The notes under the pieces: generated by a model
What the model was told of the DNA's origin: nothing
Databases searched by the model: none
What the model saw: the letters and a program-made list of their open reading frames with translations, nothing else
From: Candidatus Gastranaerophilales bacterium
GTDB taxonomy: Bacteria > Cyanobacteriota > Vampirovibrionia > Gastranaerophilales > Gastranaerophilaceae
Length of the DNA: 35,719 bases
Direction: 5' to 3'
Assembly: GCA_947587615.1 (NCBI GenBank)
Contig: CANPYC010000021.1
Coordinates: forward strand, 1 to 35,719
In this document: positions 11,494 through 19,351 of the stretch, piece after piece
Numbering within the stretch: the stretch's first letter is position 1
How the letters are laid out: each line of letters starts with the position of its first letter
Program-made: the position numbers and the translations under genes

Positions 11494-12086
11494 ATACTTT
11501 TAGCGCAAACTCCTTAAAAGTTTTAGAGCGTGATTTTGAAGAATTTAAAAATAAATATATTTATAACCTTACTCTTTTTAAAAGGGATGAAAGAGCGCTT
11601 TTGGGGCAAAAATTTCATAGTTTAATTTGCGCTTATCTGAAAAATTTTGACACTCAAAAGATGATACTTGAACTTAATGAAAAAGAAAATAATATTTGGC
11701 TGAAATTAAAAGAAAAACTGGAAGATAAGAAAAATAATTTTATTGAAACAGAGTATTCTTTTTTGGTAAAATGCGCCTTAAATAATAGAGCCGATAAACC
11801 CTATTACCTTACAGGCAGGTTTGACGCTATTTATAAAGATATCGAAGGGTATGTAATTTATGATTGGAAAACTCTTAATTTACCCTCTAATCCTTATGAG
11901 GACTTGCAGAGCGTAGTTTATTTATATTGCGCAAGTATAATTTTTAATGATACAAATATAAAAATGCGCTATTTTTCAATTGAAAAGCTTGATTTTATTG
12001 ACGTTGAATTTAAAAGTCAAACGTTTTACAAACAAAGAACAGATAAAGTTATAGAAAAATTACATCTTCTTAACAACTTGAATTAA
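11481..12086 (+). CDS. RecB-family PD-(D/E)XK nuclease, partner of the upstream helicase
   Basis: This 201-aa protein is essentially one RecB/Cas4-type nuclease domain. The conserved residues are in order and spacing: H46 in G-Q-K-F-H, D115 in G-R-F-D-A-I, D128 and K130 in Y-D-W-K-T, and the Q143-x-x-x-Y147 motif. No cysteine set like the AddB or Cas4 iron-sulphur cluster is present. The start is TTG, chosen because a perfect AGGAGG at 11471-11476 lies four bases upstream; the gene overlaps the helicase stop by 13 bases, indicating translational coupling. The inferred role is to supply the nuclease activity that AddAB carries within its own subunits. The 3' end overlaps convergent dnaA by 17 bases. 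Confidence 0.87.
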   Translation: MRSLDTFSANSLKVLERDFEEFKNKYIYNLTLFKRDERALLGQKFHSLICAYLKNFDTQKMILELNEKENNIWLKLKEKLEDKKNNFIETEYSFLVKCALNNRADKPYYLTGRFDAIYKDIEGYVIYDWKTLNLPSNPYEDLQSVVYLYCASIIFNDTNIKMRYFSIEKLDFIDVEFKSQTFYKQRTDKVIEKLHLLNNLN

Positions 12087-13470
12087 TAAGCTCGCAAAGT
12101 TCATCACTTACAATTTTCATTGCTTTATTAAGCTCAATATCTTTTTTTAATTTTTCATGCTGATAGATAATTGTTGTATGGTTTTTGTTAAATTCTTTAG
12201 CTATTACATTAAAACTCAAGTCTAAAAGCTCACGAGAAAGATATATTGCATATTTTCTTGCTTTTACAATTTCACCTGCTCTGGCGGTTGAAGTAATTTC
12301 TTTTTTATCAATTTGGAAATATTTTGCGCAAGTTGTAATTATATCGTCAACGGTTATTTTTTTCTTTTTTTCGTCAAGTTTTAAAAATTCCCTAACTTTA
12401 TCAACGCTAAGTTCAATTCCTTCTATTGAAGCAATTGCGCTTGCTTTATTGTATGCACCTTCAAGCTCTCTTATGTTTGAATTAAATTCCCTGGCCAAAA
12501 ACTCCGCAACTTCATCCGAAATCGGAAATTCCGATAAAATTGCATGACGTTTTACAATTTCTTTTCTTGTTAATAAATCAGGGATGGTTATATTTGCTTC
12601 TATTCCCCACTCAAAACGGCTTCTTAATCTGTCGGGGATTTTTTCAAAAGCACTCAGGGGTCTATCGGAAGCAAATACAATTTGTTTTCCGGCATGGTAT
12701 AATGCGTCAAAAGTGTTGAAGATTTCTTCTTCCGTCCTTTGTTTTCCATCTATCCATTGAATATCGTCGATTAATAAAACATCAACGTGTCTGTGCATAT
12801 CTCTGAATTTACGCATTTTTTCATTCAGCTCAAGTGGGCTTTTACAGGTGTTTAAAGATTCTATGAGCTTATTTCCAAATTCTTCCGCTTTTGTATATCT
12901 TATTTTTAAATTAGGAAAATTTCTTAAAATTTTATGCCCTATGGCATGCATAAGATGTGTCTTACCAAGACCGACAGAGCCTGAAATAAACAAAGGGTTA
13001 TATTTTTGCCCCGGGGCGTCTGCAATAGCCTGCGCAATTTTATAGGCAAGACGGGAATTTTCACCCTCTACAAAATTTTCAAAAGTATATTTTAAATTTA
13101 AACCGCAAAAAGAATGCATTTGAGCAAGATTTTCCATTTTTTGCGCCGTCGGAAGATGTTCTTTTTGCTCTGTTGTCGGTTTAGTTGCTTTTTTCTTTTT
13201 AATTGTTTCATCTAAAACAAATCTTACCGCCCTTTTTATTTGAGTAATTTCAAAAAGGGTTTCTTCTACTTCTTTAAGATATTTTTGCTGTAAAACCGCA
13301 ATACCAAAACTTTGAGAACTTTTAATCAGAAATATTCCGTTGTTTGTATCTTGCAGTAAAGGCAGTGCAGGTTCAAGCGAGGTTATCCACGGCTTAACAA
13401 AAGCAGGAAGCTTGTTTTCAAGAACACTTATAAACTTTTCCCAACTTTCTTTTTCAACTTTATCTTGCAT
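12070..13470 (-). CDS. dnaA: Chromosomal replication initiator protein DnaA
   Basis: This 466-aa AAA+ initiator binds DnaA boxes, oligomerises on ATP and opens the origin. Domain I is residues 1-85, a Lys/Thr-rich linker about 88-115, and the AAA+ core about 120-345 with Walker A G-L-G-K-T (K170, T171) and Walker B L-L-I-D-D (D235, D236). The C-terminal DNA-binding domain carries the signature helix with N430-H431-T432-T433. In nearly all DnaA proteins the residue before H-T-T is Asp (D433 in E. coli), one of the base-contacting positions; here it is Asn. The R399 equivalent appears conserved (T-A-R). The gene stands alone on this strand, about 4.8 kb from dnaN, and no strong Shine-Dalgarno site precedes it. 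Confidence 0.97.
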   Translation of the reverse strand: MQDKVEKESWEKFISVLENKLPAFVKPWITSLEPALPLLQDTNNGIFLIKSSQSFGIAVLQQKYLKEVEETLFEITQIKRAVRFVLDETIKKKKATKPTTEQKEHLPTAQKMENLAQMHSFCGLNLKYTFENFVEGENSRLAYKIAQAIADAPGQKYNPLFISGSVGLGKTHLMHAIGHKILRNFPNLKIRYTKAEEFGNKLIESLNTCKSPLELNEKMRKFRDMHRHVDVLLIDDIQWIDGKQRTEEEIFNTFDALYHAGKQIVFASDRPLSAFEKIPDRLRSRFEWGIEANITIPDLLTRKEIVKRHAILSEFPISDEVAEFLAREFNSNIRELEGAYNKASAIASIEGIELSVDKVREFLKLDEKKKKITVDDIITTCAKYFQIDKKEITSTARAGEIVKARKYAIYLSRELLDLSFNVIAKEFNKNHTTIIYQHEKLKKDIELNKAMKIVSDELCELINSSC

Positions 13471-17235: not shown

Positions 17236-17300
17236 ATTTAACTCCCTATTTCTAATTTATTACAGCACATCAACTTTTAAAATATTTTTTGGAATTAAGA

Positions 17301-17951
17301 ATGTTTTTTGAAAACTGTATAACCTCTTTTTTAAATTTAATTTATAAACAAAATTGTCTGATTTGTAATTGTGCAAAAGTTGACAATTTTTTGTGCAAAA
17401 CCTGTTTAAAAGATGTTCATAATTTATCGAGTTTTGCACATAGAGTTTATAAAAATATTCCGATATATAGCGCTTATATTTATAGCGGAAGTATTAAAAA
17501 ATTAATTCAACTTTTAAAGTTTTCACACAAAAAGCAAGCTTCAAAAGTCTTGTCGCAGTTATTGTTCGACTATTTTAAAAAGCTGGATTTAAATAAAGAT
17601 TTTATAATTATCTATCCAAATACATATTTTATTAAGTCTTTTTCAAGAGGCTATAATTATATGTATTTATTAGCTTTAGAATTTTCAAAGCTGACAGGGT
17701 TTAAGGTTGAGAAAAATTTAATTAAAAAGATTAAATATACAAAGCCTCAATATCTTGCAAAAAACAGACATAAGAATATTGAAGGAAGTTTTAAAATTAA
17801 TAAAAAAACAGCTCAAAAATATAAAGATAAGAATATTTTAATTATTGATGACATAACTACATCGGGCGCAACTTTAGAAGAAATTATAAATTGTTGTTTG
17901 GATAACAATTTAAATAGTCTTATCTGTTTAACAATTTCAAAAACTGTTTAA
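17301..17951 (+). CDS. comF: ComF-family phosphoribosyltransferase-like protein
   Basis: This protein (216 aa) has the ComF layout: an N-terminal zinc-ribbon with C-x-x-C pairs (C-L-I-C and C-K-T-C, within residues 18-40) and a type I phosphoribosyltransferase domain with the PRPP-binding loop I-I-D-D-I-T-T-S-G-A (D183, D184). In naturally competent bacteria ComF helps import single-stranded DNA; in others its role is less clear. The frame extends four codons upstream to TTG 17289, but ATG 17301 has a GGA-containing site 7 bases away and is preferred. Three TTTTGCACA boxes of the probable origin lie inside its 5' part, and the gene ends just before the intergenic origin region. Confidence 0.87.
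   Translation: MFFENCITSFLNLIYKQNCLICNCAKVDNFLCKTCLKDVHNLSSFAHRVYKNIPIYSAYIYSGSIKKLIQLLKFSHKKQASKVLSQLLFDYFKKLDLNKDFIIIYPNTYFIKSFSRGYNYMYLLALEFSKLTGFKVEKNLIKKIKYTKPQYLAKNRHKNIEGSFKINKKTAQKYKDKNILIIDDITTSGATLEEIINCCLDNNLNSLICLTISKTV
17370..17440. other. Three variant DnaA boxes inside comF
   Basis: The 9-mer TTTTGCACA occurs exactly at 17392-17400 and 17370-17378 (minus strand) and at 17432-17440 (plus strand). They have the same sequence as the three boxes in the intergenic origin about 530 bases downstream. They lie in coding sequence and may be auxiliary DnaA-binding sites. Confidence 0.5.
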
Positions 17952-17959
17952 TTAATTAT

Positions 17960-18158
17960 TTAATACCTTGTGCAAAAGTTGTTCAATTTTTTCATAAGTT
18001 TTGCACATGTAAAAATTCAATCATATCAACTCTTTTAACACCTTTTGCACAAATATACACTCTTTATTATAGATTATTACTTTTTTATATAAATATATAT
18101 TTATTTATATAATATAATTTTGTAGTGCAAAGAAATTTAAATTTTCTAAATAGAAATG
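17960..18158. other. Candidate replication origin (oriC) with variant DnaA boxes and A/T-rich unwinding region
   Basis: The comF-dnaN gap carries exact TTTTGCACA boxes at 17969-17977 (minus), 17999-18007 (plus) and 18043-18051 (plus), and a weaker one at 18124-18132. The first two form an inverted pair. From about 18052 to 18122 the sequence is almost pure A/T with runs such as TATATAAATATATATTTA, as expected for a DNA-unwinding element. Placement beside dnaN matches the origin described in Synechococcus, where the box is TTTTCCACA. This box differs by a single base. The assignment is an inference from clustering; gene orientation does not flip here. Confidence 0.65.
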
Positions 18159-18188: not shown

Positions 18189-18226
18189 ACTTGGAGAATA
18201 ACTAACTTAAAGTGGAGAAATTGCCT

Positions 18227-19351
18227 GTGGAAATAGTTTTAAATAAAGAAGATTTCTCAAACGGGATAAAAATTGTAGAAAAGATTACTGCACAAAAAGC
18301 CATTCAACCTATACTTTCAAATATTTTAATTGAAACAATATCAAATGACAGAGTTAAATTTTGTGCGACAGATTTAAACCTTGCAATAAATTACAAAACT
18401 TCTGCTGAAGTTGTTGAAGGTGGCGCAATTACTTTAAGTGCAAAAAAAATATCTGAAATTGTTTCAAAAATATCTTCAACAAATATCAGTCTAAAAGTTG
18501 AATCAGATACGGATAATATCAAAATTAAAGGCGGAAAAACCGTTTTTGATTTAATAGGTTTAAATGCTTCCGAATTTCCGAATGTAATTGACACGCAAGA
18601 CAATGAAGAATACAAAACTATAACCGTAAACAAAAATGAATTTTCAAAATCAATTAAACAGGTAATTTTTGCGGTTTCAACTCAAGAAACGCAAGCTGTT
18701 TTAACAGGTGTTTGTTTTACGGTTGAAAACAATATTTTAGAACTTGCCGCAACTGATGGAAACAGATTAACAAGGGTTCAAAAACAAATTGAAGCACAAG
18801 TTGATGAAGCAATTAATTTCATTGTTCCGGCTAAAACACTTAGCGAAGTTCAAAGAATTTCATCAATTGTTGATGATGAAAACATTACTTTAAAAATTAA
18901 GAAAAATAAAATTTTATTTGAATTTAAAGATTTGGCTTTTCAATCAAGACTGATAGATGGAATTTATCCCAAGTATCAGCAACTTATTCCTTCTGCAAGT
19001 GATAAAAAAATTGTAATTGATAGAGCAGAGTTAATTAACTCAATTGAAAGAGTATCAATTATGGTTAACGAAAGAACAAACGTTGAAAGGTTTAAATTCA
19101 CACAAGGGCAGCTCGAGATAATGGCAGATACTCCGGAAGCAGGTAGTTCTAAAGATTATATTGATGTACAATATGATTTTGACGATATGTTAACGGCATT
19201 TAATTACAAATATGTGTTAGATGGTTTGAAAAATATGGATTCTAAAAATATTGAAATTGAAATTTCCGATGTTTTAGCTGCCTCAATTTTCAAACCGCAG
19301 GAAGATAGCAGTAACTATATTTGTTTAATCATGCCTGTTAAAGTTCAATAG
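18227..19351 (+). CDS. dnaN: DNA polymerase III beta subunit (sliding clamp)
   Basis: This 374-aa protein is the dimeric ring that tethers DNA polymerase III to DNA. It shows the three-domain clamp pattern, with I-L-S-N-I-L-I in domain I, A-T-D-G-N-R-L in domain II, and the C-terminal I-M-P-V clamp motif near the end. The start is GTG 18227, with GGAG at 18214-18217 nine bases upstream, and this start aligns exactly with the E. coli N-terminus. An upstream in-frame GTG at 18212 would add five residues. It is preceded by its own promoter and the candidate origin, and thrB follows eight bases after the stop, suggesting co-transcription. Confidence 0.96.
   Translation: MEIVLNKEDFSNGIKIVEKITAQKAIQPILSNILIETISNDRVKFCATDLNLAINYKTSAEVVEGGAITLSAKKISEIVSKISSTNISLKVESDTDNIKIKGGKTVFDLIGLNASEFPNVIDTQDNEEYKTITVNKNEFSKSIKQVIFAVSTQETQAVLTGVCFTVENNILELAATDGNRLTRVQKQIEAQVDEAINFIVPAKTLSEVQRISSIVDDENITLKIKKNKILFEFKDLAFQSRLIDGIYPKYQQLIPSASDKKIVIDRAELINSIERVSIMVNERTNVERFKFTQGQLEIMADTPEAGSSKDYIDVQYDFDDMLTAFNYKYVLDGLKNMDSKNIEIEISDVLAASIFKPQEDSSNYICLIMPVKVQ

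Follow-up and report, generated by a model that had tools for sequence, protein, structure and literature searches.

A probable chromosomal replication origin upstream of dnaN in a Gastranaerophilales genome, and covariation of DnaA-box position 6 with DnaA residue 433

Introduction

Few protein–DNA pairs in bacteria are as conserved as DnaA and its box. Melainabacteria, to which the Gastranaerophilales belong, are non-photosynthetic relatives of the cyanobacteria, and a search of the open literature found no paper on their origin or DnaA box. In Escherichia coli, the DnaA box follows the consensus TTWTNCACA, in which any base is allowed at position 5 (PMC5043019), and Asp433 (E. coli numbering), reported to be strongly conserved in every class, has its published contact at box position 7, not 6 (PMC8235120). 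The Epsilonproteobacteria have a conserved T5 (TTCAC core), which represents a class-wide change in box preference accompanied by recognition-helix changes (PMC5043019), and the box of Thermotoga maritima is non-classical, ACCTACCAC (PMC10316083).

Here, we analyzed a window of 35,719 nt, a complete contig from a draft Gastranaerophilales genome (2.13 Mb in 81 contigs), and compared it with related genomes. The 5′ part of comF together with the comF–dnaN gap is identified, with a probability of about 0.85, as the chromosomal oriC of this genome, and position 6 of its candidate DnaA boxes is found to vary with residue 433 of DnaA among the genomes compared.

Results

Candidate DnaA boxes cluster within comF (5′ part) and between comF and dnaN

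The initial annotation had counted six exact copies of TTTTGCACA within about 680 bases and none elsewhere in the window. The recount agrees: all six lie within 17370–18051 (682 bp), the remainder of the 35,719 nt holds no other exact copy, and none of 100 shuffles reached six, the expectation for the window being 1.0; for six copies in 682 bp, a rough Poisson estimate gives P ~6e-14. DnaA boxes are thus clustered beyond chance, as in a DnaA-dependent bacterial oriC. Copies with one mismatch occurred in the window at the chance level (30 versus 23.7 expected). Counting the word genome-wide, which had been suggested as a check, proved uninformative, with 64 copies in 2.13 Mb; an apparent four-fold enrichment over the reversed word was dropped, because a Markov model predicts 50–66 copies. 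As TTTTGCACA occurs at the expected rate genome-wide, the signal is the cluster and not the word.

Of the six copies, three lie inside comF, in its 5′ part, and the other three in the gap, as had been described. The comF-like gene (17289–17951, + strand; phosphoribosyltransferase domain, Pfam PF00156 and ORF list) overlaps the first array with its 5′ part. This comF array comprises three boxes on the reverse strand, R1 (17370–17378), R2 (17392–17400, 22 bp past R1) and R3 (17403–17411, 11 bp past R2), and the forward box F (17432–17440, + strand, 62 bp past R1). R1, R2 and F are exact matches to TTTTGCACA, and R3 is the variant TTTTAAACA. Both R3 and a possible weak box TTATGAACA (17414–17422, − strand, 11-bp phase) are in phase with the comF array and had been overlooked by the exact-word search. 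In the gap array, exact matches are found at 17969–17977 (− strand), 17999–18007 (first forward box, + strand) and 18043–18051 (last forward box, + strand, 44 bp past the 17999 box), and a decayed box AATTGAACA with two mismatches lies at 17980–17988 (− strand, 11 bp past the 17969 box), where several relatives have an intact box. The window boxes therefore carry G5-C6 at the six exact sites, in addition to TTTTAAACA at 17403. The comF-array boxes at 17370–17400 coincide in part with codons for cysteine close to the N-terminus of ComF, the first box reading TGT GCA AAA, and ComF protein and origin constraints share bases in this stretch, where the 11- and 22-bp spacings place the boxes in different reading frames.

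Adjoining the last forward box is an A/T-rich stretch (18052–18119), a candidate DNA unwinding element (DUE), which corresponds to the roughly 70 bases of nearly pure A/T noted previously behind the gap boxes and measures 68 bases with 93% A/T. The least stable 50-mer of the whole window starts at 18065, shortly past the last box, and the array is thus adjacent to an easily unwound A/T-rich stretch, as at an oriC. The gene dnaN (18212–19351, + strand; DNA polymerase III beta clamp, Pfam PF00712, PF02767 and PF02768) begins 160 bp beyond the last box, and dnaA (12070–13470, − strand; Pfam PF00308 and PF08299) lies 4 kb to the left of the array, so that the proximity to dnaA or dnaN that marks an oriC is found in the window. 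A dnaN promoter, which had been placed behind the A/T stretch, gained no support beyond chance from a consensus scan. In several relatives (loci L260, L261, L262, L263, L266 and L308), one TAA falls inside the dnaN match, with an open frame of ~374 aa versus 379 in the query, and the C-terminus of the clamp is probably slightly shorter there.

The box arrays are conserved in position and spacing among relatives

The suggested comparison of the comF–dnaN gap in related genomes was run on 35 dnaN loci (Ca. Gastranaerophilales) from the window's genus and from genera close to it. The comF template, R-R-R-F at 0/22/33/62 bp, was recovered in 32 of the 35 loci (mismatch sum ≤4) and the gap template in 20 of 35, and neither was found in shuffled regions. 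In two genomes (L137 and L258) the first array is located farther from dnaN with its spacing retained. At the homologous sites, R1 is mostly TTTTGCACA/TTTTGAACA in the 32 related loci, R2 is TTTTGCACA/TTTTACACA, R3 is TTTTAAACA, TTTTGCACA or TTTTGAACA, and F is TTTTGCACA, TTTTCCACA or TTATGCACA; in the gap array, the spacing from the 17969 box to the next forward box is conserved, and both forward boxes are also supported by the relatives.

Across 201 homologous sites, position 5 is G in 111, A in 68, C in 21 and T in 1, and position 6 is C in 145, A in 55 and T in 1, with the other box positions nearly invariant except for T/A at position 3; judging from these sites, the putative box of the window's clade is TTTT[G/A][C/A]ACA. 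Position 6 is C in all six exact window copies, and A in the 55 homologous boxes. As for the C5 of the cyanobacterial TTTTCCACA, G stands there in 6/6 window boxes and C in only the 21 of 201 homologous boxes. The C-to-G change had been proposed as a lineage-specific origin code, a claim that could not be upheld as stated, since position 5 takes G, A and C and TTWTNCACA allows any base. G at position 5 is thus not new in itself, and the sharper covariation is that of position 6 with DnaA residue 433.

Box position 6 covaries with DnaA residue 433

In alignments, the DnaA of the window carries the recognition helix KNHTTIIYQH, in which KNHTT takes the place of RDHTT in solved DnaA structures, e.g. 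that of B. subtilis, and Asn is found where the classical helix, (R/K)DHTT, has Asp at 433. Asp433 is missing in every class member examined: the window's clade has Asn at residue 433, apart from one species with Thr, most others have Lys/Arg and a few families Thr/Gln. In cyanobacteria and other phylum members, Asp433 is retained. In a tree of DnaN plus the DnaA core, with domain IV excluded, the Asn433 clade (support 1.0), with the one Thr433 species, is nested inside the Lys433 lineages.

A word search upstream of dnaN with no box preset recovered TGTAGAAAA (TTTTCTACA) in the Lys433 genomes. In 22.2 kb upstream of dnaN in these genomes, 193 copies of TTTTCTACA were counted versus 1.2 expected and none of TTTTCCACA versus 0.8 expected, the expected counts being taken from downstream sequence, and word changes at positions 4, 7 and 8 remained at background (C8-to-T8, 2 versus 2.0 expected). 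Tandem classical boxes at 11 bp are nearly absent from the Lys433 genomes, which indicates that any arrays they have are built on a different word. At individual loci (L153, L154, L158, L326, L328 and other Lys433 loci), TTTTCTACA arrays replace the classical boxes upstream of dnaN, and among related genera TTTTGAACA is used in g6 and TTTTATACA in g98. The reverse–reverse spacings of 11/22 bp and the forward–forward spacing of 43–44 bp are common to the Asn433 and Lys433 groups, the latter being that of the 17999/18043 pair in the window; therefore, the two groups seem to have the same arrays with a changed word.

When TTTTNNACA was counted upstream of dnaN, position 6 was C in 15 and T in 272 boxes of 53 Lys433 genomes, C in 83 and T in 3 of 19 Asn433 genomes, and C in 20 and T in 0 of four Asp433 genomes. 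A second count, with TTWTNNACA and thus no constraint on positions 5 and 6, yielded T 268, A 73, G 12 and C 6 at position 6 in 50 Lys433 genomes and C in 25/25 hits of the four Asp433 genomes; in the 19 Asn433 genomes it gave C 93, A 86, T 7 and G 1, which comprise all hits in ~1.5 kb and include some background, so the homologous-site count is the cleaner one for this group. At the genus level, T/(T+C) at position 6 was 0.5–1.0 in 22 Lys/Arg genera and 0–0.25 in four Asn genera, with the genera non-independent. Most boxes in the Lys433 arrays keep C5, and these arrays also contain A6, mostly as G5-A6. The loss of Asp433 as the cause of G5 was rejected, since in the majority of Lys433 arrays C5 is retained and it is C6 that changes. 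Upstream of dnaA, boxes of either kind are not enriched, and autoregulation thus lends no support.

Three genera with Lys or Arg433, g8 (L151), g4 (L308) and g2 (L161, L321 and L323), have no recognisable array upstream of dnaN, with DnaA present; the DnaA of g2 and g4 also has Pro at position 435 (HPT), and in all three genera the origin probably moved or the box changed further. One Lys433 genome (G051) carries two tandem near-classical pairs, TTATACACA/TTATCCACA and TTATCCACA/TTATTCACA, 2.5 kb apart on a contig other than that of its dnaN (C185, 14219 and 16733; L299 and L301).

Weighed on these sequence comparisons, the chances that residue 433 is the cause of the base-6 change are roughly even. 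A hydrogen-bond reading, in which the acceptors Asp and Asn go with an amino base at position 6 (C and C/A, respectively) and the donor Lys mostly with the keto base T, fits most of the counts, the exception being A6 in the Lys433 arrays. Because the Asp433 contact is published as base 7, another residue may be the cause, or residue 433 may act indirectly, and as residue 433 changes with clear arrays number only about two on the tree, the association rests on few independent events. The strongest competing explanation, doubtful yet worth keeping in view, makes residue 433 a bystander and assigns position 6 to another change in domain IV, such as a one-residue deletion before the recognition helix; it draws on the published position-7 contact and on family f1, which carries this deletion. 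However, the deletion occurs with C/A6 in the Asn433 clade and with T6 in the Lys433 lineages of f1, and the order families f2–f7 have Lys433 and T6 without it, which means that the deletion does not track position 6.

That the locus is an ordinary classical oriC, with TTTTGCACA being just one TTWTNCACA word and the specificity unchanged, is improbable. The consensus does allow any base at position 5 (PMC5043019) and all six exact boxes fit it, but the homologous sites have A6 in 55/201 and T6 in 1/201, position 5 is mostly a purine, unlike in the nearly all-C cyanobacterial arrays, and the sister lineages have T6 with Lys433 in a class where every member examined has lost Asp433. A/T mutational drift would convert C to T and the Lys433 genomes are A/T-rich, yet drift instead of DnaA specificity is a very unlikely source of their T6, given that C6 persists in the Asn433 genomes, whose A/T content is about as high, that C5 stays in most Lys433 boxes, and that C8-to-T8 is at background (2 versus 2.0) at the same time as TTTTCTACA reaches 193 versus 1.2.

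GC skew switches at dnaN in relatives with long contigs

The third-codon-position, gene-strand-corrected skew was calculated and scanned for the best change-point. In the window, no significant switch was seen (F 0.5), and the skew of the source genome is very weak, 0.02–0.04 over 40–120 kb stretches (contigs C1–C5 of G000 and the window) compared with 0.14–0.26 in relatives. A genome in 81 contigs with such weak skew leaves the window unable to decide, and long contigs of relatives were therefore used; the weak own-window skew is uninformative rather than contrary to an oriC.

In two same-genus genomes and one of a neighbouring genus (G003, G295 and G001), the best change-point fell at 275,000, 108,000 and 51,000, versus dnaN 5′ ends at 274,772, 108,066 and 51,301, with F of 234, 139 and 251, respectively. 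The null maxima of F for these scans were 15–21, and the sign was that of an origin in all three. In G045, a Lys433 genome of a different, more distant family of the order, the best cut was ~5 kb from dnaN (F 534), and in G068 only a weak switch was seen, with the best cut at dnaN (F 8.1). The GC-skew check called for earlier thus locates the minimum at the site in three long-contig relatives and near dnaN in a fourth. A three-box TTTTGCACA cluster on contig C3 of G045 was discarded as an origin candidate, since the skew places the origin near dnaN on C1. The distance of dnaA from the origin is ~180 kb in G003 (C1) and ~40 kb in G001 (C2) versus 4 kb in the window, and the gene order around the origin is rearranged between these genomes.

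The proposal of a probable oriC by dnaN is therefore well supported, chiefly through the relatives, by the skew switch at dnaN in relatives, the array kept in position and spacing, and the adjoining A/T-rich stretch that is the least stable of the window. DnaA-box clusters away from oriC are known in other bacteria, e.g. datA of E. coli, and the window itself shows no skew switch, but a DnaA-titration or regulatory site for dnaN/comF in place of an origin is highly unlikely in view of the change-points at dnaN in three close relatives and near dnaN in a distant one, and of the least stable DNA of the window adjoining the array.

Discussion

At the origin proposed here, DnaA would read the candidate boxes and assemble on two arrays with helical phasing, namely the comF array, in which a forward box follows three reverse boxes, and the gap array, in which one reverse box precedes a forward pair spaced 44 bp apart; strand opening is then predicted in the A/T-rich element, within 18052–18119. 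The TTTT[G/A][C/A]ACA boxes would be read by an Asn433 DnaA; elsewhere in the order, Lys433 predominates and TTTTCTACA occupies the equivalent place. It appears that the class changed its initiator specificity together with its origin at box position 6, and that the window's clade changed a second time. In the simplest history, the class would have lost Asp, and exchanged C6 for T6, at its root or close to it; in the window's clade, a replacement of Lys by Asn would later have accompanied the change from T6 to C/A6. The first of these steps is dated only loosely, because arrays outside the order are short and their word is harder to make out. Whether residue 433 was itself the specificity switch by which the class rewired initiator and origin, acceptor Asp/Asn being matched with an amino base and donor Lys mostly with keto T, and the window's clade did so a second time, is a proposition to which we would give even odds.

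A class without Asp433 in which the boxes changed in step would exhibit the co-change of an essential initiator and a multi-site origin code, and the Asn433, Lys433 and Asp433 lineages would be natural pairs for testing DnaA specificity. The box words are also of practical use for locating oriC in uncultured Melainabacteria of the gut, as searches with the classical box would miss the TTTTCTACA arrays in most of the order.

Among known systems, the DnaA of Thermotoga maritima also lacks Asp433 (NRSHP in 2z4r), but it belongs to a different phylum and the register of its box to TTWTNCACA is ambiguous, for which reason a parallel at position 6 was dropped. In comparison with the E. coli R-type box, TTWTNCACA, all six exact window boxes match, whereas the homologous sites of the clade accept A6 and the sister lineages have T6 instead of C6. 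The cyanobacterial oriC lies near dnaN or dnaA with TTTTCCACA boxes and resembles that of the window in having arrays upstream of dnaN in several genomes (G067, G091 and G186), some of which are 11-bp phased; the cyanobacteria combine C5 and C6 with Asp433, whereas the window's clade combines G/A5 and C/A6 with Asn433. The Epsilonproteobacteria resemble the class of the Gastranaerophilales in having a class-wide change of box preference with recognition-helix changes, but theirs affects position 5 and leaves the Asp-His dyad intact; in the class studied here, position 6 shows the stronger change and Asp433 is lost.
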